NCBI RefSeq assembly: GCF_000222485.1
Contig: NC_015914.1
Span: 992,001-1,056,000 of the forward strand
Length of the DNA stretch: 64,000 bases
Reading direction: 5' to 3'
Origin: Cyclobacterium marinum DSM 745
Lineage (GTDB): Bacteria > Bacteroidota > Bacteroidia > Cytophagales > Cyclobacteriaceae
Of this stretch, positions 33,649 to 53,838 are shown piece after piece. The position numbers were made by a program, and so were the translations under genes. The notes under the pieces were generated by a model that worked only from the letters and a program-made list of their open reading frames with translations, did not search any database and was not told where the DNA came from. Within the stretch, counting starts at the first letter, position 1; each line of letters begins with the position of its first letter.

Positions 33649-34286
33649 CCCAAAAACCCCATAGGGGTGTCACTTTTGTAGCCAAGGCTGTAAAGCCTTG
33701 GTTAAAAACATGGAGAGCAATCTGATTTTGGCGGTATTGTTGCTATTTTTCTGCAATAATGTTGACAAAATCACTTTCGCCTATAGTTATCCTAATTTCT
33801 ACCTGTTCATTTTTGCCCCTGAGTTGCTGTGCTTCAGGGCAGGCCCTGAGCGAGTTATAAATCAGGGCAGGCTTGATCCAAAAACGAACCAAAAAAATCA
33901 AGGCTGTATGTAAATCTTAACGCAAAATGAATCACTCCCTGGCTAAACAAAAAAAACTCGGCCGAAAAGGCCTCAAACAGTTTTTTGTTTTTAACGCCAT
34001 TGAGCAATCCATTTTACTAATTTCCATAAGGCCGAAAACAGTAAATAGAATTGAATAATATTACGCAGCTAAAGCTATACAGGCTAGATATTTAACCTAC
34101 CCTAGAATTCATTTTCGCTTGACATTACTCCCTATGGTAATATTGACGGCAAAGCCTAACAAATCCCAAAACCCCATAGGGGTGTCACTTTTGTAGCCAA
34201 GGCTGTGAAGCCTTGGTAAAACAAGGAGGAGAATACGATTTTGGCGGTATTGTGGCTATTTTTCTGCAACAATGCTGACAAAATCA
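33649..34286 (+). repeat. modular repeat block 1a (A1-E1-C1-A2)
   Basis: First block of a repeat family. Modules are named here: A (~125 bp core with three hairpins), B, C, D and E linkers. Core A1 is 33649-33775 and A2 34165-34286. E1 (33815-33873) holds CCCTGA/TCAGGG hairpins, and C1 (33884-34157) starts with the GAACC box and contains a GGCCGAAAAGGCC-type hairpin. Both A copies carry the stem CCAAGGCT/AGCCTTGG, with loop GTAA in A1 and GTGA in A2. Short frames here are by-products of the repeat, not genes. Confidence 0.85.
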
Positions 34287-34363
34287 CAACCTAAGTTAAG
34301 AGGATAAGAGAAGCTGGGACGAAAGATCTCCTGATTCTCCATTGTAATATAGCCCACTTTTAT

Positions 34364-34654
34364 TCATCCTATTCTATTCGGAATATCCATTCTTTCATGT
34401 ACGATTCGGTCAACTTTCAGAAGTTCCCCATCTACTTGATAGACGATGAAATGAGCATTAATTTTAATCATTCTGTGGTTAGGTTTTATGCTAATAATTT
34501 GCCTTCCCAGTTCCGGGTTAATACAAATATTGTCGATTTGAGTCATTATTTGCTTGACATAATTATCCGCTTGTTTTAAAGACCAGTTTGTATAGGTATA
34601 TTCCCAAATGTTTTCTAAATCATTAATTGCTAACCTACTTAATTGGAATTTCAT
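34364..34654 (-). CDS. parE: RelE/ParE-family toxin
   Basis: A 96-residue type II toxin. The ParE pattern is clear: MKFQLSRLAINDLENIWEYT at the start, then QADNYVKQIMTQIDNICINPELGR and a C-terminal RIVHERMDI. ParE toxins poison DNA gyrase, while RelE relatives cut mRNA on the ribosome; this one groups with ParE by motif. Its ATG overlaps the antitoxin stop (ATGA), so the two are coupled. The module sits inside repeat cluster 1. Confidence 0.9.
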   Translation of the reverse strand: MKFQLSRLAINDLENIWEYTYTNWSLKQADNYVKQIMTQIDNICINPELGRQIISIKPNHRMIKINAHFIVYQVDGELLKVDRIVHERMDIPNRIG

Positions 34655-34896
34655 TTCGAATGTTTTGCATGCATTCTTTCTAAAAATTCTTTGGGATCAA
34701 AATCAGTGATATAGCCACTGTTTTCTCCCGCTTCAATTGCTTCTTTTAAAGCCGTTATTTTTTGTTCTTCTTCTTCAATTTTTCGCAACCCTGCTCTAAT
34801 CACCTCACTTGCTGAAGCATACCTTCCGGAAGCAATGCTTTTTTCTATGATGGATTCAAAGTGCTCTCCTAAAGTAATTGAAGTATTTTTTGCCAT
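34651..34896 (-). CDS. parD: ParD-family ribbon-helix-helix antitoxin
   Basis: An antitoxin of about 81 residues with an N-terminal ribbon-helix-helix (NTSITLGEHFESIIEKSIASGRYASASEVIRAGLRKIEEEE) that binds DNA and a flexible C-terminal tail (FDPKEFLERMHAKHSK) that would wrap the toxin. I chose the ATG at 34896 over a TTG at 34902. A perfect palindrome lies 23 bases upstream (34920-34934), which probably serves as its own operator. It is clearly homologous to the antitoxin at 45426. Confidence 0.92.
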   Translation of the reverse strand: MAKNTSITLGEHFESIIEKSIASGRYASASEVIRAGLRKIEEEEQKITALKEAIEAGENSGYITDFDPKEFLERMHAKHSK

Positions 34897-34919
34897 TTCC
34901 AATTATTTTATTTTCAATA

Positions 34920-34934
34920 TACCAATTATTGGTA
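34920..34934. promoter_or_regulatory. candidate ParD operator palindrome (copy 1)
   Basis: TACCAATTATTGGTA, symmetric about its central T, 23 bases upstream of the parD ATG. The same 15 bases at the same distance precede the second parD gene (45701-45715). Confidence 0.6.
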
Positions 34935-35004
34935 TTGATGTCAACACTGTCCTTTCATTTTTCAATGATAGGCATATAGGTAAGAGTTCTTGAATTTCTA
35001 GATT

Positions 35005-35930
35005 CCAAAAACACCGTAGGTGTGGTATTTTTGTAGCCAAGGCTGTGAAGCCTTGGTCAAAGCATGAAGCACAATCTGATTTTGGCGGTATTGTTGCTTT
35101 TTTTCTGCAACAATACTGACAAAATCACTTTTATCGGGATCATAAAATATAATTCATAGGGGAATTTAACCTTTTGAGATGGTTTGTTGACTTTTTCTAA
35201 TGGTTACCCTTTTCTTTTCCTGTTCATTTTTTCCTTGATGAAAAAACGAACCAAAAAAATCAAGGCTGTATGTAAATCTTAACGCAAAATGAATCACTCC
35301 TTGGCTAAACAAAAAAAACTCGGCCGAAAAGGCCTCAAACAGTTTTTTGTTTTTAACGCCATTGAGCAATCCATTTTACTAATTTCCATAAGGCCAAAAT
35401 AAAAAATAGAATTGAACAAACTTAGGCAACTTAAGCCATATAAGCTAGATATTTAACTTACCCTAGAATTCATTTTCGCTTGACATTACTCCCTATGATA
35501 ATATTGACGGAAAATCTTAACCAACCCAAAAACCCCATAGGGGTGTCACTTTTGTAGCCAAGGCTGTAAAGCCTTGGTTAAAACGATCTGCACGATACGA
35601 TTTTGGCGGTATTGTTGCTTTTTTTCTGCAATAATGCTGACAAAATCACTTTCGCCCGTAGTTATCCAAATTTCTACCTGTTCATTTTTTCCCCTGAGTT
35701 GCTGTGCTTCAGGGCAGGCCCTGAGAAGAAATCAGGGCAGGCTTAATTCAAAAACGAACCAAAAAAATCAAGGCTGTCAAATCTTATTTCAAATGATGGG
35801 TAATTGTTTAATGAACAAATATTTTTTACGTAGCCAACATTTGAAGGCCGGTAAAGCCTAATACATTGTGCTTTCAAAAAGAAACGTAATTACCGATATA
35901 AGAATTTCCATCCAAGGACGTAGGCTACAT
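35005..35930 (+). repeat. modular repeat block 1b (A3-B1-C2-A4-E2-D0)
   Basis: Core A3 (35005-35127) belongs to the subfamily with CACCGTAGGTG, core A4 (35525-35649) to the subfamily with CCCCATAGGGG. B1 spans 35130-35275, C2 35246-35518, E2 35693-35743. D0 (35777-35930) is a D module that lacks the internal long hairpin found in the other D copies. Hairpin loops are GTGA (A3) and GTAA (A4). All modules run in the plus direction. Confidence 0.85.
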
Positions 35931-36058
35931 TGTCCAATGCAATCCTGTACTGCTCTAAAATTCCAGCTTCTGAAAATTTGGGTTTACTGGCCATACAAAT
36001 TGAATTTAAAGGTTTATAAAAACATCATGAAAATTCCCATTCATAACCAAACCCTCAC

Positions 36059-36114
36059 CCGATCACCACATCACCCCATCATTACATCACAGCATCACTA
36101 CATCACCCCATCTC
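36059..36114 (+). repeat. 8-bp tandem array, NNNATCAC type (7 units)
   Basis: Seven consecutive 8-bp units: CCGATCAC, CACATCAC, CCCATCAT, TACATCAC, AGCATCAC, TACATCAC, CCCATCTC. The last five positions are nearly constant and the first three vary. It abuts the 21-bp array that begins at 36117. A second array with the same 8-bp period is at 61550-61633. Confidence 0.85.
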
Positions 36115-36116
36115 CC

Positions 36117-36277
36117 TTCCTACAATTGCATTCCTCCTGCTTACAACTCCCTTCCTACGACTTACATTTGTATTCCTACCACTTACATGGCTGTTCCTAC
36201 GACCTGCATTTGTGTTCCTACCGCTTACATTTCCATCCCTACAGGCTACAATTCAATCCCTACCGCTTACAAGCCTA
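36117..36277 (+). repeat. 21-bp tandem array (7 full units plus a partial one)
   Basis: Units start at 36131, 36152, 36173, 36194, 36215, 36236 and 36257, each 21 bp with the theme TTCCTACSRCTTACATTTNN; a 14-bp partial unit is at 36117-36130. Units differ by several bases, so the array is not a recent expansion. Because 21 is a multiple of three, a plus-strand frame (35868-36323) reads as a 7-residue repeat (S-Y-D-L-H-L-x), but there is no sign that it is a real gene. Confidence 0.85.
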
Positions 36278-36492
36278 CCCCTTCCCATCACAAATCGCTA
36301 AGTCATTGACCCTATGGCTATAACTATGAATATAATAAATTTCTATGAAATCAAAAAATTGGGAAAACTATGCTCAATAACAACACTAATTCTCCTCACC
36401 TTTTCAATATTTATTTTAGGGTAACTTGACCTATTTAATGGTCATACCAGGGTTTTCCAGTAGCGAAAATGTTTGTTAATTGGACATAATTT

Positions 36493-37341
36493 TTATTGTC
36501 CCAATCCAAAATATCTTTGAACTATAGGTTCGGTTGCTGCACCGAGAACATAGAACAGAATCGTCCAAATTGAAAATAGAATCCAATTGTTCTTTACAAT
36601 CTCAATTATTCCAGGAATAGTAAGTCCATAAATCTTCACTTTTGTCAAATTAACTTTTAGTTTGTCTTGTTCGGTTCGATGAATAATATTATCCATTATA
36701 TCAACTTTTCTAAGAGTTGATCTATGTAATTTCAAATATTCTTTGTCGTCATAAGCAGCAGCTTCTTGTTTACCCGTTAATGTGTCTCTTGTACTTATTT
36801 CATTACGAATCGCTAGGTTTAAGAGTCTTCCATCAGGTTTATTTTTTTCATAAGCATATGAATAAATTTTACCTAGAATTCTTGGAAAGTCATATTTACG
36901 GTCATCATCTAAATGAAAAGGATTACCCCCTAAAATCTTATATCTATTTGCAATTGCTTCGAAACCATAATTTGAGTCTCGCATATTCCAATGGATCCAT
37001 TTTTTATCTTTATTACTTTTCATGTACTTGTAAAATTCGAAAAGCATTTTCTTTTCTAAGGTATCATAGTCTTCAGGGTTAAGATTATTAAAATTTTTAC
37101 CGTCAAATTGAGCTTGTATATGTATGGAAAAAGACTTCATTTGGGCAGTTTCCATTGATCGTACACTAATAGAAGTAACCCTTGGAGTTCGCCCATGTGA
37201 AGTGACAAATGATTCACAGGAGTAATGAATAATCAGCGCCTTACCTTTATCTTTTAAAATTTCTTTCAACTGGTCAAGTCCTTCTTTTCTCTCGATTAGT
37301 CTTTTTGACTTTAGAAACATTTTTTTGTGATTTTTATGCAC
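36493..37341 (-). CDS. conserved protein of unknown function with C-terminal membrane anchor
   Basis: A 282-residue protein. Residues ~34-225 form a soluble domain with the hallmarks IIHYSCESF (38-45), RVTSISVRS (54-62), WIHWNMRDSNYGFEA (115-129), a DDDRKYDFPRIL element (145-156) and AYDDKEYLKLHRSTLRKVDIMDNI (196-219). A single membrane helix follows at ~252-271. I recall similar proteins in diverse bacteria, always as uncharacterised. The spread of conserved acids and histidines (E43, D122, D151, D214, H206) is loosely reminiscent of an RNase H-like nuclease, but the DxE motif is not intact, so I do not call a function. It lies in an accessory segment between repeats. Confidence 0.6.
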   Translation of the reverse strand: MHKNHKKMFLKSKRLIERKEGLDQLKEILKDKGKALIIHYSCESFVTSHGRTPRVTSISVRSMETAQMKSFSIHIQAQFDGKNFNNLNPEDYDTLEKKMLFEFYKYMKSNKDKKWIHWNMRDSNYGFEAIANRYKILGGNPFHLDDDRKYDFPRILGKIYSYAYEKNKPDGRLLNLAIRNEISTRDTLTGKQEAAAYDDKEYLKLHRSTLRKVDIMDNIIHRTEQDKLKVNLTKVKIYGLTIPGIIEIVKNNWILFSIWTILFYVLGAATEPIVQRYFGLGQ

Positions 37342-37399
37342 TACAACATTGAAAATAAAAGTAATAGTGCTTCCATGTTAGATCCTGTCTATAAAATTC

Positions 37400-37411
37400 A
37401 TTAACGTTAAT
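37400..37411. promoter_or_regulatory. perfect 12-bp palindrome between two accessory genes
   Basis: ATTAACGTTAAT lies in the 131-base spacer upstream of the 282-residue protein gene. It could be an operator; the AT-rich context makes chance possible. Confidence 0.25.
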
Positions 37412-37472
37412 AATATCCCGACTTTTACGATCTGATTTAAACACTTAATTAGTAATAAAATATGAAATGTTA

Positions 37473-38204
37473 TTACCAATCAAAAGGTCTATCATATTTA
37501 ATATTTTTTTTATCAAACTCTTTTTCTAATCCCATTAGAACTTCTTTGAAAGAATTTACAATTTCATGAAAATATTCGAGATCCACATTTTTAAATTCTG
37601 ATTCATGAACTATAATATTTCTTTTATTCTGTAACCCCTTAAAGAACCCAATAATATTTGTTGAATATTTTAATTTAATTAAATTCTCAAATCTAATAAA
37701 AGATTTATCTATTTTCCCATAAATAATATATGCACTAGCCCTTTTGCAAACAGATTTGATAATATCTCTTGTTAATTCTGTACTAGTTAAATTATCTAAA
37801 TTAAATGATGTATTAATTTGAAAATTTGAATTAATCTGTTCAACTCTTTTAAGTAAATTATTATTTGCTAATAAAAAAAGAAAAACACTTTTTTTTAATA
37901 TTTGCTCTAAAACCTCAAATAGATAAACAATTATATAATTTAAATACATTGAGCCAGCATGTTGAAATTCTGAATGAAGACTAGCACCAAACATATCTAT
38001 ATATACAGAACCAGAAATAATTAAAGAATCATTCTTAATACTGAATGATTTCAAGGAACGATTGTTCTTTAGATGGGCTAAAATTGAATCTTTATCATTT
38101 AAATACAACATCAAATCTTGATGTCCGTATGATGACGTAATAATTTTTCCCCACCATAAACCAAAATCAAAATATTCAGAATCAATTGTCATAATATTTT
38201 TCAT
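37473..38204 (-). CDS. AT-rich hypothetical protein with HEPN-like R-x4-H motif
   Basis: A 243-residue protein I cannot place in a named family. Its middle and end are predicted helical, and near the C terminus it has L-Q-N-K-R195-N-I-I-V-H200-E, which fits the R-x4-6-H motif of HEPN ribonucleases (typical of toxins and defence proteins). The gene is visibly more AT-rich than its neighbours (many AAT, ATA and TTT codons), which suggests transfer. It lies between the 152-residue and 282-residue protein genes on the same strand, with spacers of 108 and 131 bases, so co-transcription is uncertain. The HEPN assignment rests on one motif plus helical content. Confidence 0.5.
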   Translation of the reverse strand: MKNIMTIDSEYFDFGLWWGKIITSSYGHQDLMLYLNDKDSILAHLKNNRSLKSFSIKNDSLIISGSVYIDMFGASLHSEFQHAGSMYLNYIIVYLFEVLEQILKKSVFLFLLANNNLLKRVEQINSNFQINTSFNLDNLTSTELTRDIIKSVCKRASAYIIYGKIDKSFIRFENLIKLKYSTNIIGFFKGLQNKRNIIVHESEFKNVDLEYFHEIVNSFKEVLMGLEKEFDKKNIKYDRPFDW

Positions 38205-38244
38205 CTATTAAAAATTAGTTCAATTATAAAGTAGCAAAACAATG

Positions 38245-38305
38245 TGGTTTAACGATTTAGCTATGTGCAGGGTCCCGAAGGGCATTGCGGATAGGTGTTA
38301 TTGTA
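38245..38305 (-). other. imperfect palindrome resembling an integron attC site
   Basis: Read on the minus strand, this spacer starts near TAACACCTATCCGC, has a central GCCCTTCGGGACCC hairpin and ends GCACATAGCTAAATC then GTTAAAC. The last seven bases fit the attC core GTTRRRY, and TAAC/GTTA plus an 8-base inner pair (6 of 8 matching) form nested arms. The left core fits RYYYAAC poorly, and no integron integrase is in the window. The site lies right after the 152-residue gene, where a cassette attC would be. Confidence 0.25.
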
Positions 38306-38312
38306 GCCAGTT

Positions 38313-38771
38313 TTATTTTCTTTCTTCAACAATAGTTTCGTAAGTGCCGTCATCATTGAATTTCATATATCTAATAGGCAGGTCAAGTACTTCCACTCCA
38401 ATGTCAAACGGATTTTTGTCTGTATATCCGCAGTCATTGAAGCCAAAGGGATTGTCTTCGTATTCATATGGAACTTCATTGAACTTACTGCCCATTATTC
38501 CCCAAGCGTGATTTGGAAGTTCAATCCAATTTTCTTTTTCTCTGTCTGGAGTTATATAATCGGATACCTTGAGAGTGTATTTGTCCAGTTTACACAATTG
38601 TCCGTCTTTAAGCTCTTTCATTCGGTAAAACTCCTTCGCAAATTTTGAGATTTCTTCCTTCTTTCCACGAAAGCGAACTTTATTCTCCAAATGTACTATT
38701 TCATCCCCTTTTGGAACCTGAATTTCAAGAGCGAAGTTTTTCCTGCCGAATATTTTATCGAAAAGTTTCAT
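38313..38771 (-). CDS. hypothetical protein
   Basis: A 152-residue acidic, soluble protein of unknown family. It begins MKLFDKIFGRKN and contains ELPNHAWGIMGSKFNEVPYEYEDNPFGFNDCGY. No signal peptide, membrane segment or catalytic motif is visible. Small acidic proteins of this kind in accessory DNA are often immunity proteins, but nothing here shows that. It is the first of three same-strand accessory genes (38771 down to 36493). Confidence 0.55.
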   Translation of the reverse strand: MKLFDKIFGRKNFALEIQVPKGDEIVHLENKVRFRGKKEEISKFAKEFYRMKELKDGQLCKLDKYTLKVSDYITPDREKENWIELPNHAWGIMGSKFNEVPYEYEDNPFGFNDCGYTDKNPFDIGVEVLDLPIRYMKFNDDGTYETIVEERK

Positions 38772-39179
38772 TTTTTAATTGGCTACAACATTCATATATA
38801 AACAATTCTACCAAAAAAGTTACATATATACCAACTATACCCCCAACTCCTTCAGCTTACCCCCCTTAAATTAACAATTCACACCAAGCAAACCATTGTA
38901 AATACTAAAATCTTAATGGAATTCATTAAAAACGGTTGGAAAAAAGATATAAATGGACATTTCTCTCCCTAAAACACAGCATATTCTTAGGCCTAGGCTT
39001 TTCCTCACTTCTATAATTTTTATGCAATAAGCTCTTAAGCTCCTTTCCCTGCCTTTATAAAAAATCCAATCCCCCGATTAAGCCAATTCTTCTCAGCCTT
39101 TAAAAAGAATCCTACGATCCTATTAGACACCCTTCGACAAGCTCAGGGGACAAGGTCTGAGTGTATATATTGTTTTTCT
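38772..39179. other. spacer with a CCCTTCGACAAGCTCAGGGG element
   Basis: About 400 bases between the accessory genes and dinB-like gene. At 39130-39149 lies a short hairpin-forming sequence (CCCT...AGGG arms) of a kind scattered through many bacterial genomes. The rest is AT-rich with no gene recognised. Confidence 0.4.
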
Positions 39180-39647
39180 TTAATCCCAGATATCAGGTCT
39201 CTTGATATTCATCGCTCGCAAATAGCATTGGAATTGTCCTGCATGAACGGATTCATGGTAGCCAATCCGCAATAAATATTTTCCGAGGATTTTCTTTTCT
39301 CCATTTCCGGGATGAATGATTTCAGTTTCATCTAATTCTTTATCAGAAAATTTGCCTACACTTTCTAAAAATGCTTGCCTATGAGGTTCTGCAAATTCAA
39401 GCTCTTCAGTAAGAATTTTCATGGGTTGGTTTTCCCAAGGGCTTTGATAATTGGCCATGCTCCCCCTATTGATAATAATGTTCCATCCATAGTCGGCTTC
39501 TAAAACGTGCCTAATCATCTCCATTGCCGACATTGCTTTTTCGTCAGGCTTCCAATGGTAATGGCTTTCAGGAAGTCCTTTCCACAGTTTTATACTTCTT
39601 CTCCTTATTTCTGTAAAGTTCAAAATTAACAGTTCGGAATGCCTCAT
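39180..39647 (-). CDS. DinB-family protein
   Basis: A 155-residue four-helix-bundle protein of the DinB/YfiT superfamily, whose members are metal-dependent thiol transferases or of unknown function. The three metal-binding histidines are likely those in EMIRHVLEADYGW (near residue 47) and in IGYHESVHAGQFQCYLRAM (near 130-134). It lies 32 bases after the stop of the hybrid kinase gene on the same strand, so both may be on one transcript. Confidence 0.85.
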   Translation of the reverse strand: MRHSELLILNFTEIRRRSIKLWKGLPESHYHWKPDEKAMSAMEMIRHVLEADYGWNIIINRGSMANYQSPWENQPMKILTEELEFAEPHRQAFLESVGKFSDKELDETEIIHPGNGEKKILGKYLLRIGYHESVHAGQFQCYLRAMNIKRPDIWD

Positions 39648-39679
39648 GTTTTCAATTTCAAGGATATCTGTTTAGCTGG

Positions 39680-42600
39680 CTATTCATCTATTTTTTCCAG
39701 CAGTAACTTCTTTACAAATCCCCATTCTTTCTTGAGCGCTGTTAACCGTTTTTCTAGCATCTCAAGAGAATTCTCTTCGGTGTCATTTTCGATTTTGGTA
39801 GCGATATCAGCTAAAATATTGCATCGAATGGCCAGCATGGATCCCTTTATTGAATGAGCAATTTGTCTAATGGTTTTGCTATCCTTTTCCTCATAGGCCA
39901 GGTTGAGTTGGTTTATTTTATCCGGCATGTCAGCCAATAACATTGAGATTAAATGTTGCGCACTCTTGATATCCCCACCAAGACTATTCAAAAGTTCGCT
40001 ATAACCGAAATGAACTTCATTTGTAGCAATTGCCTCATTTTTGTCCGCATCAGCTTCCTTATCTTGGCGAAAGAATTTCTTCAACACCGATTCAATTTTC
40101 TGAACCTCTAGGGGCTTTGTCAGGAATTCATCCATTCCTGCCGCCAAACACTTCTCTTTTTCCTCCTTTAATGCTCCCGCTGTAAGTGCAATAATTGGAA
40201 TATGTCTACCGGTACCCTTTTCTATAATCCTTATCTGCTTGGTGGCACCTATGCCATCCAGCTCGGGCATTTGAATGTCCATAAATACTATATCAGGGTT
40301 GAGCTTCTTGTATTGCGCTACAGCTACTAACCCATCCGCTGCTTCGCAAATTTCACTATTGGGCATTAGTTGGAGTAGCAAGGTTTTGCTAAGCACCATA
40401 TTTAAGGCATTGTCCTCGGCAATGAGGATTTTTATTTTTTCCTTTGAATCAAATGCAGGTTTTTTTGCTTCAGTTTCTTGCCTGGGCCCGGCTTTTAAGT
40501 CTTGATTTAAATTGGAGAGAAAAGTAAACAGGTCTTGGCTTTTGACGGGCTTGGTTAAGCGAAAACGAACCCCAATTTCCATACTTTTTTGGTGGATTAT
40601 TTCATCCTGAGCGGAGGAATAAAGTAGAATCACCGGATGTGTTTCCAGATTTAAATTCAGTTTTTCCTTCATGAGGCGAATGGTTTCCAGGCCATTAATA
40701 TAGGGCATATGATAATCGCAAATGATTACATCATAAGGCAAGGCCTTTTCCATCACTTGTAATGCCTGAAATCCATTCTCACAAGTATCTGAATCTATTT
40801 GCCACTGATCAAGCATCTGTTGCAATATTACTCGGTTGTAAGCATTGTCATCAATAATCAAACAGCGTTTCACACCTGTAATCTTTGTTGGATCCGGTTT
40901 TTCACCTTCTTCAAAATGAGTTATGATCTCAAAAAAGAAAGTAGTACCTACATTAGGTTTGCTATCAATTTGGATTTTGCTTCCCATTTTTTCAGCAATC
41001 ATTTGCGAAATGACCAGACCCAACCCGGTACCTCCAAATTTACGGGTAGTGGAACTGTCGGCTTGAGAAAATGATTTGAAAAGCTTGGCTTTTTGTTCTT
41101 CATTAATGCCAATACCGGTATCTCTTACAGCTATTTTAAGGGTACCTTGATCCTGACCTAATGGTAAAAACTCCACTTTAACGGTCACTTCCCCCTTTTG
41201 GGTAAACTTTACAGCATTGCCTAAAAGGTTTGCCAGAATCTGCTGGGTACGAATGGGATCTATATGAGCAAAACGAGGCATGCCTGGATCAATATCCATT
41301 AACAATTCAAGCCCTTTCTCTGCTGCAGAGAATTTAACGATATCAATGCAATTTTCGAAAAGTGCTATCATATCAGTTCTAATCTCTTCCAGCTCCAACA
41401 TGCCTGCTTCAATTTTAGAAAAATCAAGTATATCGTTGATAATGCCAAGAAGCGTATGACCGGAAACATTGGCACTGTTTACATATTGTTGCTGAACAGG
41501 GCTAAGTGGTGTCTTGGTGAGCAATTCGGTAAAACCAATTACGCCATTTAATGGCGTTCGAATTTCATGGCTCATGTTGGCCAAAAACTCAGATTTAGCT
41601 TTACTGGCAGTTTCGGCTTGTTCCTTAGCTTTTTTCTCTTCTTCTTCCGCATTTTTCTGCGCAGTAATGTCCACATTAGTACCTATCCATCGATAGGGTT
41701 TCCCTTCTTCATCTCGGAGCAATTTACCACGTGTCATGATCCAACGCCAACTGCCATCTTTGTGAAGACAACGGTGTACTATTTCATATTTTTTGGTGAT
41801 ACCATTCAGATGGTCTGCCACCGCTTTATTAATTGAATCGGCATCATCAGGATGCCATAGATTTTTCCACCCTTCAAAGGAGTTCTCTATTTCTGAATCT
41901 TCATATCCGAGCATGGTTTTCCATTGTTTCGAGAAAACCACCTTATTATTGATCATGTCCCAATCCCAGACCCCTGCTTCCGTACCTTCTATAGCCACTG
42001 CAAAACGCAGTTCACTTTCCTTTTTCTCTTCATCTACTTTTTTGCGTCCGGTAATGTTTTTATGAGTACCTACAACTCGTGTCGCTTCTCCATCTTCGTT
42101 TCTTTCAACTACTTTTGCAGTGTTCAATATCCACAGATACTCACCTTCCTTGTTCCTAAACCTGTATTCATGGCTAAAAGCGTCACCATTTTCCGGTGTT
42201 TGTGTAACTTTATTGATCGCTGCAAACACCCATTCAATATCATCAGGATGCAACCTGTCCGACCATTCGCTTGCTAAGGATGCAAGCTCGCCCACTTTAT
42301 ACCCCAGCATTTCCACCCATGCCTTTGAATAAACAGTAACACCATTCTTTGGCGTCCAGTCCCAGATCCCATCACCCGAAGCATCCATCGCATAATTCAA
42401 TCGCTTAGTAAGTGCTTCTTTTTCCAGTTCAATGTTTTTTCTTTCGGTTATATCCTGCGCTACTCCCCTCAGCCCTATAATCTCCTTGCTTTCACTATAA
42501 ATAGCTTCTCCACGCACCCACATCCATCCCCGACTTCCATCTTTTTGAATGGTTCTCAGTTCTAATTCGTAAGGAATTCCTTGCTCTCTGGTTAAGGCCA

Positions 42601-43234
42601 AGGAAGAAGTGAGTTGCTCCCAGCTTTCCGGAGTAAATAACTTCATGTGTTCGGTATAAGGAGGAGGGGGCTTCGTGGGGTCAAAACCATACATATTATA
42701 AAGCTCCTCTGTCCAAACTACCTCATTGGTTTTTAGGTCAAGCTCCCAACTTCCTAGCTTAGAAACTTGCTGGGCATTGCGAAGAAGGTCGGCACTTTTT
42801 TGAAACTGGGACTCACTATTTCTAAATGCTGTAATATTTTGGTGAGCTCCCAGCATCCTTAGAGGCTTGCCATGTTTATCTCTAATGGCCAAACCACGAC
42901 ACCTAATCCATACAGTTGAGCCGTTTTGATGTGTGTATCGTACCGTTTGGTCGTAAGGATAATTTGGGTTTTCGAGATGTTGGGTAATCTTTTCCGTAGC
43001 AATTTTTAAATCATCAGGGTGAATAATATCTTTCCAAGCCGAAGTCTTGTGTGGCATCTCACTAGGATTGTACCCTAAAACTTCCCAAAATTTAGGATTC
43101 ATCCATTCTTCTTCAGGATTTTCCAAATCCCAATACCACATGCCATCCAGACAAGATTCTTGAATGAAATCAAAAATTCGCTCATCTGATTTAATGAGTT
43201 CGTAAAGTTCTTTTTTGAGATAATTTGTTTCCAT
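39680..43234 (-). CDS. soluble multi-PAS hybrid histidine kinase with two receivers and an Hpt domain
   Basis: A 1184-residue phosphorelay protein. Domains in order: four PAS/PAC domains (about 25-140, 150-268, 275-400, 405-528), each closing with a NIT or DIT-type PAC end; HisKA with phosphoacceptor H556 ([12 protein letters not shown]); HATPase (~650-772, with [27 protein letters not shown]); a receiver with D840 (VIICDYHMP); a second receiver with D986 ([13 protein letters not shown]); and Hpt with H1127 ([10 protein letters not shown]). There is no membrane segment, so the signal is cytoplasmic. No response regulator with an output domain is adjacent. Confidence 0.93.
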
Positions 43235-43705
43235 CTCTAAGCTTTTTATTCTGTCTAAAAAATACGAATACCATTTGTATTTAGCTATTATTTAGATGGA
43301 AGGTTGCGTGTGTTTGAATTAATCTCTCAGCTCCTTCCAACTTGTTTCTTTGTTAAAATAAGGTATTCAGACAAAGATTACATTTGTAACATCAGAATAT
43401 CAATTGTAATTGTATAATATATGAAAATCATTGCAAAAATAGGATAATATTCTCTAAGATAACCTTTCTAGAAGGTTAATTCTGTATTTTTTTGGATATT
43501 TATAAGCGGTAGGTAGGAAAGTCTACCTTTTGACTCTGCTTTGGAGAAATTGTTTTTCGTTGCATCCAATTTGTACGTTCGCGTTCACTAAGGCAACCGG
43601 AATTATTGACATAATTACAGGCCCTATTGGTCAATTGATTTTTTAGGGAGGAATTTACCCCCGCTTTTTATCGTCCTCACAGGAATTGGTGCTCCCTATA
43701 CAATT
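43235..43705. other. promoter-side spacer upstream of the hybrid kinase
   Basis: About 470 bases with no gene. The right end (43677-43705, ACAGGAATTGG then CAATTGG) resembles a segment at 45875-45905, so the repeat-rich region begins here. Confidence 0.4.
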
Positions 43706-45115
43706 GGTTAAAACGATCTGCACGATACGATTTTGGCGGTATTGTTGCTTTTTTTCTGCAATAATGTTGACAAAATCACTTTTATCAGGATCATAAAATA
43801 TAATTCATAGGGGAATTTAACCTTTTGAGATGGTTTGTTGACTTTTTCTAATGGTTACCCTTTTCTTTTCCTGTTCATTTTTTCCTTGATGAAAAAACGA
43901 ACCAAAAAAATCAAGGCTGTCAAATCTTATTTCAAATGATGGGAAATCATTCAAAGAACAAATGTCTTTTACGTAGCCATCATTTGATTTTTGGATCAGG
44001 ATTCCAGGCTAAAAATGAGTGGATCTCCTTGTGGGAGCTAACTCATTTTCTTAACGCCCTCCATCCTGCTCCAAAAACCATAACCTTTGAAGGCCGATAA
44101 AGCCTAATACATTGTGCTTTCAAAAAGAAAAGTAATTACCGGTATAAGAATTTCCATACAAAGACGTATAGTTTACGAATCCCAAAACCCCATAGGGGTG
44201 TCACTTTTGTAGCCAAGGCTGTGAAGCCTTGGTTAAAACGATCAGCACGATACGATTTTGGCGGCATTGTTGCTCTTTTTTTCTGCAACAATGTTGACAA
44301 AATCACTTTCGCCCGTAGTTATCCAAATTTCTACCTGTTCATTTTTTCCCCTGAGTTGCTGTGCTTCAGGGCAGATCCTGAGCGAGTTGCAAATCAGGGC
44401 AGGCCCTGAGTGAGTTAAAAATCAGGGCAGGCTTTAATAATACAAACGGCAAGTCTTAACCAACCCAAAAACACCGTAGGTGTGGCATTTTTGTAGCCAA
44501 GGCCGTGAAGCCTTGGTCAATGCATGAAGCACAATCTGATTTTGGCGGTATTGTTGCTCTTTTTCTGCAACAATGCTGACAAAATCACTTTTATCAGGAT
44601 CATAAAATATAATTCATAGGGGAATTTAACCTTTTGAGATGGTTTATTGACTTTTTCTAATGGTTACCCTTTTCTTTTCCTGTTCATTTTTTCCTTGATG
44701 AAAAAACGAACCAAAAAAATCAAGGCTGTCAAATCTTATTTCAAATGATGAGAAATCATTCAAAGAACAAATGTCTTTTACGTAGCCATCATTTGATTTT
44801 TGGATCAGGATTCCAGGCTAAAAATGAGTGGATCTCCTTGTGGGAGCTAACTCATTTTCTTAACGCCCTCCATCCTGCTCCAAAAACCATAACCTTTGAA
44901 GGCCGATAAAGCCTATTACATTGTGCTTTCAAAAAGAAAAGTAATTACCGATATAAGTATTTCTATACAAAGACGTATAGTTTACAAATCCCAAAAACCC
45001 CATAGGGGTGGCACTTTTGTAGCCAAGGCTGTGAAGCCTTGGTTAAAACGATCAGCACGATACGATTTTGGCGGCATTGTTGCTCTTTTTTTCTGCAACA
45101 ATGCTGAAAAAATCA
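43706..45115 (+). repeat. modular repeat block 2a (A'-B2-D1-A5-E3-A6-B3-D2-A7)
   Basis: A 5'-truncated core A' (43706-43778) is followed by B2 (43780-43919), D1 (43920-44170), core A5 (44181-44306), E3 (44347-44434, two hairpin units), core A6 (44464-44588), B3 (44590-44728), D2 (44729-44980) and core A7 (44990-45115). Equivalent points are 525 bp apart from A' to A5 and 526 bp from A6 to A7. A5 and A7 have CCCCATAGGGG, A6 has CACCGTAGGTG. All three complete cores have the loop GTGA. Confidence 0.88.
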
Positions 45116-45133
45116 TTTATAGGTATTATTTTT

Positions 45134-45433
45134 TTACTCAGCTATTCTATTTTTCAGATCCATTCTTTCGTGTAAGATCCTGATAATTTCAATTCTTTCG
45201 GGTTTAATTATTTGATAGAAGATTATATGCTTTCCAGATTTTATTCCAAGAAGGTTTCTATTTATTCCATCATATTCTTTTCCAATGTTTGGATTATGAG
45301 CGATTCCATTGCACACCATTTGTATCGTTGCGTAATACTTGTCCGCTTGAGCTTCAGACTAGGTTTCAAAAGTGTATAACCAAATATTATTTAAATCTTC
45401 GATGGCTTCTTGTCTAAATACAACTTTAGCCAT
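45134..45433 (-). pseudogene. parE: parE toxin gene inactivated by a nonsense codon
   Basis: From the ATG at 45433 the frame reads MAKVVFRQEAIEDLNNIWLYTFET, then a TAG (45359-45361), then SEAQADKYYATIQMVCNGIAHNP and on to a ParE-like end RILHERMDLKNRI. The intact toxin at 34364 has a tryptophan exactly at the stop position (YTNWSLKQAD), so a single TGG to TAG change explains it. Everything else is in frame. The start overlaps the antitoxin stop by 8 bases. Without readthrough the toxin is dead while the antitoxin looks intact. Confidence 0.85.
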
Positions 45434-45677
45434 TTTTTCTTTTTTCGGCTTTTAGTTTTTTAAGATTCTCATCGAAATCAAAGTTTTCAACAATTGGGCT
45501 ATTTAGTCCTTGTTGAATTGCATTTCTTAAGGCAATTTCTTTGCTTTCCTCATTTTCCAATAATCGAAGTCCAGCTCTGATTACCTCGCTTACGTTTTTA
45601 TACCGTCCGGCAGCAACTTGGTTACTCACAAATTGGTCAAAATAATTTCCGAGTGATATAGAGGTGTTTTTACTCAT
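45426..45677 (-). CDS. parD: ParD-family ribbon-helix-helix antitoxin (partner toxin broken)
   Basis: An 83-residue antitoxin: ribbon-helix-helix NTSISLGNYFDQFVSNQVAAGRYKNVSEVIRAGLRLLENEE, then a tail FDFDENLKKLKAEKRKNG. It is clearly homologous to the antitoxin at 34651 (same NTSI-LG, GRY, SEVIRAGLR). A 15-bp palindrome identical to the one before the first parD lies 23 bases upstream. Because its toxin is broken, it may now act as a spare antitoxin or as a cross-regulator; that is inference. Confidence 0.9.
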   Translation of the reverse strand: MSKNTSISLGNYFDQFVSNQVAAGRYKNVSEVIRAGLRLLENEESKEIALRNAIQQGLNSPIVENFDFDENLKKLKAEKRKNG

Positions 45678-45700
45678 AATTTCTAATTTTCACACTAAAA

Positions 45701-45715
45701 TACCAATTATTGGTA
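45701..45715. promoter_or_regulatory. candidate ParD operator palindrome (copy 2)
   Basis: TACCAATTATTGGTA, identical to 34920-34934, and at the same 23-base distance from the parD ATG. Confidence 0.6.
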
Positions 45716-46019
45716 ATTTCCCCAAATCACTCCGCAATTGCATAAATACATGTTTAGCCGAGAATTTGCGCTTATACCATACATACACCCTTTCGGCTAG
45801 TGTTTTGATTTTATATTTTGAGTCCTGAAAAGGTGATGTCTAACAGCGATGGGTAAAGCCCATCGTTAAATGGCCTGACAGGAATTGGCCCTCTTCATAC
45901 AATTGTTATTACACGCCTCCAGGGCTTGGGTACTTTAAAATACCCAATAAACCCTCCTCCTATATTCAATATTCCCGTAGGAATTGAAAAAATCAAAGTC
46001 ATGGATGTAGGTCAATGGT
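45716..46019. other. spacer with a CGATGGG/CCCATCG hairpin
   Basis: About 300 bases with no gene. CGATGGG (45847-45853) and CCCATCG (45859-45865) pair around a 5-base loop. The following ACAGGAATTGG and CAATTG segment is also found near 43680-43705, so this is a further short dispersed repeat. Confidence 0.5.
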
Positions 46020-47868
46020 CAGAAAAAAGTAAAATACAATTGTGGCGTCTTGTTGCTTTCTTTTTTCTGAAATAATGTTGACAGAATCCCTTTTATCAAG
46101 ATCATAAAATATAATTCATAGGGGAATTTAACCTTTTGAGATGGTTTATTGACTTTTTCTAATGGTTACCCTTTTCTTTTCCTGTTCATTTTTTCCTTGA
46201 TGAAAAAACGAACCAAAAAAATCAAGGCTGTCAAATCTTATTTCAAATGATGGGAAATCATTCAAAGAACAAATGTCTTTTACGTAGCCATCATTTGATT
46301 TTTGGATCAGGATTCCAGGCTAAAAATGAGTGGATCTCCTTGTGGGAGCTAACTCATTTTCTTAACGCCCTCCATCCTGCTCCAAAAACCATAACCTTTG
46401 AAGGCCGATAAAGCCTAATACATTGTGCTTTCAAAAAGAAAAGTAATTACCGATATAAGTATTTCCATACAAAGACGTATAGTTTACAAATCCCAAAAAC
46501 CCCATAGGGGTGTCACTTTTGTAGCCAAGGCTGCAAAGCCTTGGTCAAAGCATGAAGCACAATCTGATTTTGGCGGTATTGTTGCTTTTTTTTCTGCAAC
46601 AATGCTGACAAAATCATTTTCGCCTATAGTTATCCAAATTTCTACCTGTTCATTTTTGCCCCTGAGTTGCTCCGCTTCAGGGCAGGTCCTGAGCGAGTTT
46701 CAAATCAGGGCAGGCTTTGATAATACAAACGGCAAGTCTTTACCAACCCAAAAACACCGTAGGTGTGGCATTTTTGTAGCCAAGGCTGCAAAGCCTTGGT
46801 CAAAGCATGAAGCACAATCTGATTTTGGCGGTATTGTTGCTTTTTTTTTGCAACAATGCTGACAAAATCATTTTCGCCTATAGTTATCCAAATTTCTACC
46901 TGTTCATTTTTGCCCCTGAGTTGCTCCGCTTCAGGGCAGGCCCTGAGCGAGTTTCAAATCAGGGCAGGCCCTGAGTGAGTTAAAAATCAGGGCAGGCTTT
47001 GATAATACAAACGGCAAGTCTTTACCAACCCAAAAACACCGTAGGTGTGGCATTTTTGTAGCCAAGGCTGTGAAGCCTTGGTCAATGCATGAAGCACAAT
47101 CTGATTTTGGCGGTATTGTTGCTTTTTTTTTGGCAACAATGCTGACAAAATCGCTTTCGCCTATAGTTATTCTAATTTCTACCTGTTCATTTTTGGCTTG
47201 ATCCAAAAACGAACCAAAAAAATCAAGGCTGTATGTAAATCTTAACGCAAAATGAATCACTCCCTGGCTAAACAAAAAAAACTCGGCCGAAAAAGGCCTC
47301 AAACAGTTTTTTGTTTTTAACGCCATTGAGCAATCCATTTTACTAATTTCCATAAGGCCGAAAAAAGTAAATGGAATTGAATACGGTTACGCAGCTAAAG
47401 CCATATAGGCTTAATATTTAACCTAGCCTAGACTCATTTTCGCTTAACATTACTCCCTATGGTAATATTGTCGGCAAAGCCTAACAAATCCCAAAACCCC
47501 ATAGGGGTGTCACTTTTGTAGCCAAGGCTGTGAAGCCTTGGTTAAAAACATGGAGAGCAATCTGATTTTGGCGGTATTGTTGCTCTTTTTCTGCAACAAT
47601 GCTGACAAAATCATTTTCGCCTATAGTTATCCTAATTTCTACCTGTTCATTTTTGCCCCTGAGTTGCTGTGCTTCAGGGCAGGCCCTGAGTGAGTTAAAA
47701 ATCAGGGCAGGTTTTGATAATACAAACGGCAAGTCTTTACCAACCCAAAAACACCGTAGGTGTGGCATTTTTGTAGCCAAGGCTGTGAAGCCTTGGTCAA
47801 AGCATGAAGAGCAATCTGATTTTGGCGGTATTGTTGCTCTTTTTCTGCAACAATGCTGACAAAATCAT
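46020..47868 (+). repeat. modular repeat block 2b (A''-B4-D3-A8-E4-A9-E5-A10-C3-A11-E6-A12)
   Basis: The longest block. A'' is a truncated core (to ~46095); B4 46096-46229; D3 46230-46480; A8 46492-46616; E4 46664-46713; A9 46747-46870; E5 46912-46997 (two units); A10 47029-47154; C3 47206-47482; A11 47490-47614; E6 47657-47712; A12 47744-47868. Loops of the 8-bp-stem hairpin: GCAA in A8 and A9, GTGA in A10-A12. A-to-A distance over one E unit is ~255 bp and over two units ~281 bp, in line with a ~28-bp E unit. Confidence 0.88.
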
Positions 47869-47931
47869 TATGCAGGATTGCTGTTTCATTTAACCTGAGC
47901 GCTTTCTTTTTGGAAAAATAAATACCCTCAT

Positions 47932-49176: not shown

Positions 49177-49480
49177 GATTTTCGGGATTTATTTATCACC
49201 TATACGGAAAGCTGTGAGGAAATGCTACAATGAAAATTGAAAAAATAAAATCGCATTCCATTTCCGGATTGGAATGGCATGTATTTTTGAATATTTGCAA
49301 AAGAATCCCCCTTGGTCCCATTTGGAAAAAAGGGGTATTATGTTTTTTTTTAGGATTTACGAGCACGTTCCTGATTTAACATTTCAACAGCACCTTTAAA
49401 TTCTAAAAATTCAGCGTTAAAAAACATTGGCAGATACTCCCCAGAGGGGGATTTAAACGGGCTTTAGCTAGATTTCACTT
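49177..49480. other. spacer, nothing recognised
   Basis: About 300 AT-rich bases between two minus-strand genes; presumably the serpin promoter. No gene or clear repeat seen. Confidence 0.4.
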
Positions 49481-50644: not shown

Positions 50645-50887
50645 TTGTTAACCTTCAATCTAAAACTAAAGAAACAATTAAACCTTTCCAAAATTCTCAT
50701 CCCATTCATCTCTCACAACGAAGCCTTTTTTGGACAAAAATGTGGTCTGGCATGTCATTACTCTATAGGACTTTCTGGAACGCTCAATCAAACCAAGTCA
50801 AAACTTAATTTAACCCGATAGTATTTGCATAATTAAGATTAAATTAGAAGATTAAGCCCTTCATTAGCATTAAACCCTACCTTAACC

Positions 50888-52126
50888 ATGGAAAGAAGAC
50901 AATTTTTAAAGATTGGTGGCCTGAGTTCCGTCGCCTTATTTTCCGGAATCCCTTTTTCAAGTCACGCACGTTCCGATTTCAAAATCAAAAAAATCCGTTA
51001 TTATGCCGCTCCCGGGTACAACAAGCCGCTTTTTAACCAGGCAAGAGGCATTGTGGAAATAGAAACCGATTCCGGATTGATTGGGATTGGTGAAGGGGGA
51101 ACTCCCGACATGGTGAAACAATGTGCGGAAATGCTTATCGGTGAAGACCCATTCAGAATCGAACACCTTTGGCAATACCTTTATAGAGGGATGTTTTATC
51201 CTCCGGGCCGTGAAAAGCTTCATGGAGTTGGTGCCATAGAAATGGCCCTATGGGACCTTAAAGGCAAAGCCCTAAATGTGCCCGTGTATGAATTACTGGG
51301 AGGAAAAACCCGAAATTATGTAGAATGCTATGCCACAGGTTTTCGCAAGAGCAATGCCTCCACCATGGAAGGAAAGGCCCAGGATTGCCTCGAAGCCGGT
51401 CTAAGGTGTTACAGAATAGGGCCTACAGGGGGAAATGGAGATTTGCCCTTTGATTTTTATGAAAACAGCAAGAAGACCATTGAAATGTGTCAAAAATTAG
51501 ACAAGGCCGTGGGCGGAAGTGGGAATTGGGCCATTGACCTCCACACCCGCTTTGACACTACGGAGGCCATAAAAATCTGTGATGCACTGGAAGAATTGGA
51601 ACCCTATTTTGTTGAGGACATCATTCGATCTGAAAACCCTGAAGTATACAAGACCATCAGAAACATGACCAAAGTGCCTATCGCCGTGGGAGAACAATTT
51701 GGGGATCGCTGGGATAGCAACGTATTGATGGAAAATCACCTGATCGATTACAGCAGGGTGACCCTTCCCAATACGGGAGGAATTAGTGAAATCAAGAAAA
51801 TAATAGCCATAGGAGAAACCCACTACATAGGCATCATTCCGCATTTTACCGGACCACTGTCTACAGCTGCACTTGTACATGTTTTGGGATCATCCAGCCC
51901 CACCCGCTGCATGATAGAGCTGGCAGGTGGCGAACCTGAGAAGCCTAGCTATTTTAATGAAGATTTTATTGATTTCAGGGAGGGTAAAGTTCATCTCAAT
52001 GACCGCCCGGGACTTGGTGTGATTTTCTCACCGGAAAAAGCATCGCTTTTGTTTGAGGTAACAAAGAACACTGAATTTACGCATCCTTATCTAAAAAGTC
52101 CGGATGGCGCTATTCACAATTGGTAG
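50888..52126 (+). CDS. enolase-superfamily acid-sugar dehydratase with Tat leader (galactonate dehydratase-like)
   Basis: A 412-residue mandelate racemase/muconate lactonising-type enzyme. A twin-arginine leader (MERRQFLKIGG, cleaved near SHARS) points to export folded to the periplasm. Metal ligands are D217 (IDLHTR), E243 (FVEDI) and E269 (VGEQF), with H219 and H319 (IPHF) as likely acid-base residues. The spacing of 26, 26 and 50 residues is that of D-galactonate dehydratase. It probably dehydrates an aldonate or related acid sugar, but the exact substrate is open. It lies upstream of repeat cluster 3 and the second SusC/SusD pair. Confidence 0.87.
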   Translation: MERRQFLKIGGLSSVALFSGIPFSSHARSDFKIKKIRYYAAPGYNKPLFNQARGIVEIETDSGLIGIGEGGTPDMVKQCAEMLIGEDPFRIEHLWQYLYRGMFYPPGREKLHGVGAIEMALWDLKGKALNVPVYELLGGKTRNYVECYATGFRKSNASTMEGKAQDCLEAGLRCYRIGPTGGNGDLPFDFYENSKKTIEMCQKLDKAVGGSGNWAIDLHTRFDTTEAIKICDALEELEPYFVEDIIRSENPEVYKTIRNMTKVPIAVGEQFGDRWDSNVLMENHLIDYSRVTLPNTGGISEIKKIIAIGETHYIGIIPHFTGPLSTAALVHVLGSSSPTRCMIELAGGEPEKPSYFNEDFIDFREGKVHLNDRPGLGVIFSPEKASLLFEVTKNTEFTHPYLKSPDGAIHNW

Positions 52127-52180
52127 TAGAGGTTTTAAGTAAGATCCTATGGAAATTATAACGTTAAAATTTAATGATTA

Positions 52181-53356
52181 CAAAAACCCCAGAGGGATGA
52201 CATTTTTGTAGCCAAGGCTGTGAAGCCTTGGTCAAAACGATCTGCACGATACGATTGTGGCGTCTTGTTGCTTTTTTTCTGCAATAATGTTGACAAAATC
52301 ACTTTTATCAGGATCATAAAATATAATTCATAGGGGAATTTAACCTTTTGAGATGGTTTGTTGACTTTTTCTAATGGTTACCCTTTTCTTTTCCTGTTCA
52401 TTTTTTCCTTGATGAAAAAACGAACCAAAAAAATCAAGGCTGTCAAATCTTATTTCAAATGATGGGTTATCGTTCTAAGAACAAATGTCTTTTACGTAGC
52501 CATCATTTGATTTTTGGATCAGGATTCCAGGCTAAAAATGAGTGGATCTCCTTGTGGGAGCTAACTCATTTTCTTAACGCCCTCCATCCTGCTCCAAAAA
52601 CCTTAACCTTTGAAGGCCGATAAAGCCTAATACATTGTGCTTTCAAAAAGAAAAGTAATTACCGGTATAAGAATTTCCATACAAAGACGTATAGTTTACA
52701 AATCCCAAAAACCCCATAGGGGTGTCACTTTTGTAGCCAAGGCTGCAAAGCCTTGGTTAAAACGATCAGCACGATACGATTGTGGCGGTATTGTTGCATT
52801 TTTTTTGGCAATAATGTTGACAGAATCGCTTTTATCAAGATCATAAAATATAATTCATAGGGGAATTTAACCTTTTGAGATGGTTTGTTGATTTTTTCTA
52901 ATGGTTACCCTTTTCTTTTCCTGTTCATTTTTTCCTTGATGAAAAAACGAACCAAAAAAATCAAGGCTGTCAAATCTTATTTCAAATGATGGGAAATCAT
53001 TCAAAGAACAAATGTCTTTTACGTAGCCATCATTTGATTTTTGGATCAGGATTCCAGGCTAAAAATGAGTGGATCTCCTTGTGGGAGCTAACTCATTTTC
53101 TTAACGCCCTCCATCCTGCTCCAAAAACCATAACCTTTGAAGGCCGATAATGCCTAATACATTGTGCTTTCGAAAAGAAAAGTAATTACCGATATAAGTA
53201 TTTCCATACAAAGACGGATAGTTTACGAATCCCAAAACCCCATAGGGGTGTCACTTTTGTAGCCAAGGCTGTAAAGCCTTGGTTAAAACGATCTGCACGA
53301 TACGATTTTGGCGGTATTGTTGCATTTTTTTTTGGCAACAATGCTGACAAAATCAT
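52181..53356 (+). repeat. modular repeat block 3 (A13-B5-D4-A14-B6-D5-A15)
   Basis: Two complete composite units in tandem: core A13 (52181-52302), B5 (52305-52441), D4 (52442-52694), core A14 (52704-52828), B6 (52831-52968), D5 (52969-53225), core A15 (53231-53356). Matching points are 525 and 526 bp apart. Loops: GTGA (A13), GCAA (A14), GTAA (A15). A13 has a degenerate first hairpin (CCCCAGAGGGA). D4 has its 15-bp outer stem at 52511-52525 and 52586-52600. Confidence 0.9.
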
Positions 53357-53838
53357 TTTCGCCCGTAGTTATCCTAATTCCTACCTATATTGAATATTTT
53401 CTTAGGACCTATACAAAAGAACCCTTACCAGGCAGGACTTAAACCCTAGTCATTTATTAAAATTTTTTGGTCAATAAAAGCAATCGTATGAAAGTGATTC
53501 CATAAAATATTTTCATAATTCTTTGACCTAAAACCCATTCCATTTCATTTATTTTTTACCCTTTTAACAAAATTTTTATACCATATTTAAAATTTAAACA
53601 ATATGAAATTGATATATAAAATGATTAATAATATATTGAGTAAACAATAAATAAAGTATTAAAGTCAATAATGGTTTAATTTGAAAAATTTAATAACCTT
53701 TAGTCTTATTTAACTCAATTAATAATCATTTAAAATCCTTTTAAATCAATTTAATCGTATTTTATTACTATTGGTTATAATCAGATCAATTGTTTGGCTT
53801 AATTACTTTATATCACTAAACCCAAAATAACCTTAGTT
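53357..53838. other. very AT-rich promoter region of the second SusC gene
   Basis: About 480 bases, nearly all A and T with many AATAAT and TTTAA runs. It must carry the SusC/SusD promoter, but I cannot mark it with confidence. No gene seen. Confidence 0.45.

Follow-up and report, generated by a model that had tools for sequence, protein, structure and literature searches.

Fifteen near-identical hairpins recur between positions 33,649 and 53,356 of a 64,000-nt stretch of the Cyclobacterium marinum DSM 745 genome (NC_015914.1, positions 992,001–1,056,000; hereafter the window), raising the question of what kind of element they belong to and how it has multiplied. We find that the hairpins are the central part of a block of about 120 nt that folds into three hairpins (hp1, hp2 and hp3). 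The block is probably a non-autonomous element of the repetitive extragenic palindrome (REP) type, putatively recognized by Y1 transposases as folded single-stranded DNA (ssDNA), carrying an extra hairpin and multiplied in arrays.

A unit of three hairpins

A pattern search for CCAAGGC(T/C)-NNNN-AGCCTTGG recovered all 15 plus-strand copies described in an initial annotation of this stretch, with an identical loop tally (nine GTGA, three GTAA and three GCAA) and the single stem change noted there, a C in the GTGA copy at 44497. The copy starts given in that annotation lie 31–33 nt 5′ of each stem, and its 15 copies omit two that are partial or degenerate (43693–43780 and 45969–46091). Across the 6.22-Mb genome, the exact stem pattern was matched 18 times and a reversed control pattern not once, excluding a chance origin; three of these copies lie outside the window, one of them with the loop GTTA.

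Each window unit consists of hp1 (ACCCC-ATA-GGGGT or ACACC-GTA-GGTGT in most copies), a linker ending in GTAG, hp2, 21–23 nt of spacer and a long hp3 whose loop is T-rich, and the single strand of the unit is predicted to fold into all three hairpins. The third hairpin had been described as kept, with C/T changes that preserve pairing; hp3 is indeed present throughout these units, and its pairing is maintained through G–T. More generally, the linker between hp1 and hp2 is about 9 nt long and mostly ends in [G/A/C]TAG, the hp2 stem has 8 bp and the hp2 loop 3–5 nt. In C. marinum and three relatives, hp2 and hp3 are separated by 20–25 nt and the three hairpins recur as one block. The hp2 foot is nearly constant in 47 aligned copies (T in 41, A in 46 and G in 46), and the tetranucleotide before hp2 is GTAG in 35, ATAG in 11, CTAG in 3 and another sequence in 10 of the 59 parsed cores; the parser gives preference to AG in front of the stem. 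The hp1–hp2 doublet was followed by hp3 in 43 of 45 cases, a fraction biased by the choice of regions that hold cores.

Compensatory change in hp1 and hp2

Selection on a folded strand, as the initial annotation had proposed, should leave paired changes among divergent copies, and we looked for these in 47 divergent cores, aligned by sequence, of the 70 in the C. marinum genome. Paired cells made up 94.2% of the alignment (hp1, 86.4%; hp2, 93.6%; hp3, 96.5%), compared with 32 to 49% when the structure was slid. Changes on both sides of a pair were found in 79 cells versus 19.2 in shuffles, and the covariation score was 0.205 versus 0.098; for neither measure did any of 500 shuffles reach the observed value. 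Doubly changed pairs were found in hp1 (four of five) and hp2 (six of eight). None of the 19 hp3 pairs was doubly changed, because the sequence of hp3 hardly varies: mean information per column was 1.79 to 1.85 bits in hp3 versus 1.14 bits in the 5′ stem of hp2. The folding claim holds for hp1 and hp2. Of the two forms in which it had been cast, RNA or a mobilized single strand, selection on a folded strand is supported and single-strand mobilization gains support as one option.

GNRA loops mark one local sub-family

The most striking feature reported from the window was a loop that is always of GNRA type. We counted loops in 59 parsed cores, leaving out of the 70 ten that could not be parsed and one copy with hp3 alone; among the 59 are three degenerate cores in which the assigned hp2 could be an artefact. 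The loop was GNRA in all 15 parsed copies from the window and in only 6 of 44 from the rest of the genome, where loops include GCCA, GTCA, CTCA, GAA, ATTA and ACCA. In five of these six the stem is of the window type or differs from it by one base, and by eye a GTGA loop is also seen in two of the ten cores that could not be parsed (L079:3317 and L088:909). With 38 of 44 outside copies non-GNRA, the rule fails beyond the cluster. This is close to the outcome that the initial annotation itself had named as telling against its reading, and its caution that the loop variation might stem from one lineage was well placed. GNRA as a conserved RNA feature is ruled out by the 44 parsed copies outside the window. 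In the window these loops reflect common inheritance within one sub-family, a local family resemblance and no rule, and a loop motif from one local cluster should not be read as functional.

These results bear on the idea that the core is transcribed as a structured RNA, with three hairpins and a GNRA docking loop serving a regulatory or stabilizing role. Compensatory changes in hp1 and hp2, the predicted fold of the single strand and the G–T pairs that keep hp3 paired all speak for it. Against it stand the 38 non-GNRA loops, a search of the window with Rfam that matched 0 families at gathering thresholds, wobble pairs that show no strand bias outside three pairs in which G–T is commonest, and the link, described below, between the doublet and Y1 transposase genes. 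Taken together, we regard a structured RNA as improbable.

The element is abundant in four Cyclobacterium genomes

To search for further copies we used a covariance model trained on 19 units, of which the window supplied 15. In each genome scoring was confined to the best 92 to 150 candidates, so the copy numbers given here are minimum values. The C. marinum genome (G000) holds at least 104 matches up to E = 1; at least 72 reach 44.9 bits or more, some of them partial, in at least 23 places, 10 of which are single. Across 39 genomes, with the best 92 candidates scored in each, matches at E ≤ 0.001 numbered at least 76 in G000 and at least 89, 84 and 84 in the Cyclobacterium genomes G007, G009 and G010, respectively; among the matches listed, the other eight congeners had 0 to 2 each and the 27 genomes outside the genus had none. 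The exact upper stem of hp3 follows the same pattern (G000, 54; G010, 62; G007, 64; G009, 64; other eight congeners, 0 to 2). The element is thus abundant in four of 12 Cyclobacterium genomes. Among named genomes, 63 of 74 stretches with the hp3 arm are from Cyclobacterium, including Cyclobacterium qasimii; the other 11 are single candidate matches, and two more lie in viral contigs. According to PMC7232363, C. marinum, C. qasimii, C. caenipelagi and C. amurskyense belong to a single branch within Cyclobacterium, and the four core-rich genomes likely form one branch.

A different repeat family, in pieces of about 200 nt, adjoins the single core at C1:4288317 (L087, about 2100–2900) and recurs in the C. 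marinum, G009 and G007 genomes.

Block ends and mode of spread

Aligning 22 copies from different places defined the ends of the unit: conservation sets in at the AA preceding hp1 and drops at the AAAATC that closes hp3. Two rows are misanchored on the 3′ side (L081:1173 and L076:13720) and a third, L092, by one base, so the hp3 conservation shown in this alignment is too low. The flanks are unrelated as a set, and similarity is confined to the block of about 120 nt. Repeats indicative of target duplication were not in excess in the flanks of the 22 copies (mean longest match, 1.32 versus 1.59 when flanks were re-paired; 441 of 500 shuffles reached or exceeded the observed value), and the ends, compared in 8 of the 22 copies, bore no terminal inverted repeat. 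A miniature inverted-repeat transposable element of DDE type is ruled out by ends without inverted repeats (8 copies) and by the lack of target duplication (22 copies). Absence of target duplication is the rule for single-strand (HUH) transposition. The presence of a 120-nt block at many sites is unlike DDE elements and in keeping with HUH transposition; duplication of longer stretches has also taken place.

Those longer duplications invite a passive account, in which mainly tandem and segmental duplication spread a satellite of old intergenic DNA and hp3 was homogenized by quasi-palindrome correction or gene conversion. Longer modules are indeed repeated around the window cores, tandem units of 555–556 bp in L076 look alike by eye, the L094 site in the sister genome G009 holds tandem units, and some distant copies have upstream modules in common. 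In addition, one hp3 there (L199, about 2733–2784) has two arms that are nearly fully complementary, as if corrected as a quasi-palindrome. However, segmental duplication does not readily give 22 copies that, as a set, share the 120-nt block only, nor does this account sit well with different hp2 types within one array. We consider a passive satellite unlikely.

Orthologous spacers between conserved genes (L089, L260 and L258) differ in sequence across sister species, and intergenic spacers seem to turn over fast.

Doublets resembling hp1–hp2 accompany Y1 transposase genes

The C. marinum genome has four matches to the Y1 transposase family PF01797. We scanned 31 of the 52 PF01797 matches in the genus, and 28 of 30 found for the family (the two left out being from Cyclobacterium), for doublets, defined as two hairpins separated by a short linker followed by AG. 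A first scan, with no G–T pair in hp1, T or C before AG and an hp1 loop of 3–4 nt, found 11 doublets at 5 of the 31 genus loci; a relaxed scan, which allowed one G–T pair in hp1, any base before AG and an hp1 loop of up to 5 nt, found 26 doublets at 11 of 31. Both scans found none at 20 control stretches taken from G000 and G010, and 20 rounds of shuffling the genus loci gave 2 doublets in 2.0 Mb. Elsewhere in the family, 10 of 28 Y1 loci had doublets (16 in all) versus 0 of 20 controls from the same genomes, and shuffled loci gave 7 in 1.85 Mb; the shuffles preserve base content, not dinucleotides. For genus and family combined, doublets were present at 21 of 59 Y1 loci versus 0 of 40 controls (Fisher P = 5.6e-6). 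Most doublets lie close to the gene, the matched Y1 stretch being no more than 500 nt away for 32 of 41 measured. The core at L115 is left out of this measurement; L115 is counted among the 11 genus loci solely on account of a full core at a distance of more than 1.3 kb.

Like doublets accompany related Y1 proteins. The CCACGGGT type is found at L019, L105 and L114, the CGATGGGT type at L099, L108, L111 and L117, and the CCATGGGT type at L120 and L121. The first of these is also the hp1/hp2 type of the C. marinum cores L094, L085 and L093:6557, and the C. marinum Y1 gene at L019 is adjoined by a doublet, AAGCCTGAAGGGCTTC..ATAGCCACGGGTGAAACCCGTGG, close to the type of cores L094 and L085. The motif Y..Q..HH was present in 21 of 26 parsed Y1 proteins of the genus (five of the 31 were unparsed) and at 10 of the 11 doublet-bearing genus loci, the eleventh gene, at L115, being truncated. 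Because 21 of 26 of all parsed proteins carry it, the motif does not mark out doublet-bearing loci.

Another Y1 gene, with a YIHLNP motif, has tandem repeats with GACCTTCGGGGTTT and AAACCCCAAAGGTC arms beside it (L020, about 600–1300), which are probably a separate REP system.

A probable variant of the REP plan

That no named element fits, as the initial annotation had stated, proved too strong, since published accounts treat a GTAG at the base of a hairpin, on its 5′ side, as the signature of GTAG-type REPs (PMC3733652, PMC6006769). As these accounts present them, GTAG-type REPs and REPtrons (a REP with TnpAREP/RAYT, as in Escherichia coli and Stenotrophomonas) resemble the core in placing [G]TAG at the foot of a short GC-rich hairpin (PMC3733652, PMC6006769, PMC8266576). 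They also resemble it in stems that vary with compensatory changes, in small, variable loops and in occurring in many copies and clusters with hairpin types tied to Y1 genes; REP copies are extragenic. The variability of stems and loops in GTAG-tagged REPs is described in PMC3733652, which names Bacteroidetes for another, CGTC group of REPs. According to PMC8266576, it is the single-stranded REP that is cleaved, GTAG has a role in this, and loop sequence is important in some systems.

The Cyclobacterium core departs from this plan in having an additional hp1 upstream of the tetranucleotide and a nearly invariant hp3 downstream. A GTAG-type REP is a simple unit of 21–65 nt, single or in dimers, whereas the Cyclobacterium unit is one block of about 120 nt, and its arrays, unlike REPs, run mostly head to tail in one orientation. 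As the unit is hp1-TAG-hp2-hp3 over about 120 nt, we class it as a REP-like variant and not as a standard REP. A REP of the GTAG type is expected to flank its transposase gene, and here the L019 gene adjoins a doublet of CCACGGGT type and no such gene was found for the window type, CCAAGGCT.

The Y1 proteins differ as well. With 21 of 26 carrying Y..Q..HH, as opposed to the Y...NP of RAYT subclasses, most parsed Cyclobacterium Y1 proteins appear to fit TnpAY1 subclass 1.2, judged by the motif (Y---Q--HH), a length near 150 aa and phylum. This subclass, mainly of Cyanobacteria and Bacteroidetes, has the REP entry 'no' in the survey of Quentin et al. 2018 (PMC6006769), yet 10 of 11 doublet-bearing genus loci carry its motif; the same survey notes 'atypical secondary structures' for subclass 2.6.

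The core also recalls other short mobile elements in its lack of target duplication, its size and its hairpins. Palindrome-associated transposable elements (PATEs), non-autonomous derivatives of IS200/IS605, are short, non-coding and hairpin-bearing, make no target duplication and are thought to be moved in trans by Y1 transposases. No autonomous IS200/IS605 parent with the ends of the core was found in the genomes examined.

Several observations weigh against a Y1-linked, REP-type element. By eye, the window copy at 35530 shares longer upstream sequence with L078:2263, as do L085, L092 and L093:6557 with one another, and these common modules point to duplication, or to a longer unit, for those copies. 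No clean empty site was found: the L089 unit is absent from the orthologous spacers of G009 and G007, where the spacer is wholly replaced. The controls of the doublet scans were arbitrary and unmatched for intergenic content, and those for the genus came from two of 12 genomes; by the same scan, 38 of the 59 Y1 loci had no doublet. No Y1 gene among the 31 genus loci is flanked by the CCAAGGCT type, a strong core match occurs at only one of the 31 (L115, with its truncated gene), and at the 59 loci hp3 was recognized beside no Y1 gene, L115 excepted. Finally, two of five covariation measures were weakly above shuffles (23 and 71 of 500 shuffles as high), and the wobble count (25 G–T versus 27 A–C outside the three pairs already mentioned) is without strand bias. 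Even so, we judge a non-autonomous REP-type element the probable identity of the core.

Arrays and neighbouring genes

In the window, the units all lie on the plus strand. In order, the first four are 33654–33775 (hp1 ACCCC-ATA-GGGGT, GTAG, hp2 loop GTAA, hp3), 34169–34288 and 35009–35129 (both GTGA) and 35530–35650 (GTAA). A partial unit at 43693–43780, which has hp3 without hp1 or hp2 (71.6 bits), is followed by units at 44185–44307, 44469–44589 (stem CCAAGGCC) and 44995–45117, all with GTGA. Next are a degenerate unit at 45969–46091 (39.6 bits), two GCAA units (46497–46618 and 46752–46872) and three GTGA units (47034–47155, 47494–47615 and 47749–47869). The remaining units are 52184–52303 (GTGA, with hp1 degenerate), 52709–52830 (GCAA) and 53235–53357 (GTAA). 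A parDE toxin–antitoxin pair lies on the minus strand between two units (34364–34902; ParE PF05016 and ParD PF03693, both above cut-offs), and a second parDE-like pair, whose ParE frame covers profile positions 36–88 only, is at 45134–45677 on the same strand, likewise between units. The cores overlap neither the parDE frames nor any of the ten larger proteins scanned; two frames of 145 and 140 aa, outside the protein scan, overlap cores and are taken as spurious. Two other modules recur between the units from 33780 to 47730: a CCTGAG...CAGGGCAGGC hairpin (for example, at 33815–33872), which is often tandemly repeated, and a longer one containing AACGAACCAAAAAAATCAAGGCTGT.

Arrays of this kind raise the prospect of an integron-like system, in which each unit would pair cargo with a 3′ palindromic recombination site in one orientation. 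Like integron attC arrays, core arrays run head to tail in one orientation, with a palindromic site per unit and occasional gene cargo. Among the matches listed, 10 of 13 multi-copy clusters are uniformly oriented (the other three are pairs), and L076 holds five head-to-tail units of 169–171 bp (169–172 bp for such units overall) with at least two hp2 types in the one array. Longer units contain additional sequence, and reading frames occupy some intervals, such as a SnoaL-like frame recognized by eye in L077 and parDE in the window. An attC site is conserved in structure rather than sequence, with conserved outer R boxes, unlike hp3 and its 3′ flank. The core hp3 is conserved in sequence, beyond structure, there is little conservation after it in the 22 copies, and ten copies among the matches listed are solitary. 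No integron integrase exceeded the curated cut-off in the C. marinum genome, where the best score against NCBIfam TIGR02249 was 124.5 bits versus a cut-off of 265, which speaks against an integron; sub-cut-off integrase matches were present in 14 of 14 control genomes too. An integron-like cassette array is therefore very improbable.

The 124.5-bit score belongs to each of four tyrosine recombinase genes (G000:C1 1648126, 1857586, 4255966 and 4260981), 284-aa frames that match the integrase model without its middle part. These equal-scoring genes are probably a mobile element.

A working model

For the REP-type element that we favour, a Y1 transposase would recognize the folded strand, with the tetranucleotide at the hp2 foot as guide, and would scatter units in trans. 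Local duplication and the turnover of spacers could then build arrays in one orientation, which may take in bystander sequence such as the parDE genes. In a more speculative version, the unit would be a complete minimal single-strand transposon whose left recognition end is the doublet and whose right end is hp3, and a subclass 1.2 Y1 transposase would move it in trans; insertion next to itself in the same orientation would yield cassette-like arrays that gain genes such as parDE. We offer this last version tentatively, as a possibility that we think is rather doubtful.

Literature searches on Cyclobacterium palindromic repeats and on RAYT/REPtron returned no published description of the element among the matches listed. 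The element is palindromic, REP-like and linked to Y1 genes, and its third, nearly invariant hairpin gives it a new composite form. The core provides a candidate substrate for subclass 1.2 Y1 transposases, a group surveyed without REPs, and so opens their function to direct tests in vitro. It further illustrates how a REP-like doublet can acquire another hairpin and turn into a unit that forms arrays in a few related species.

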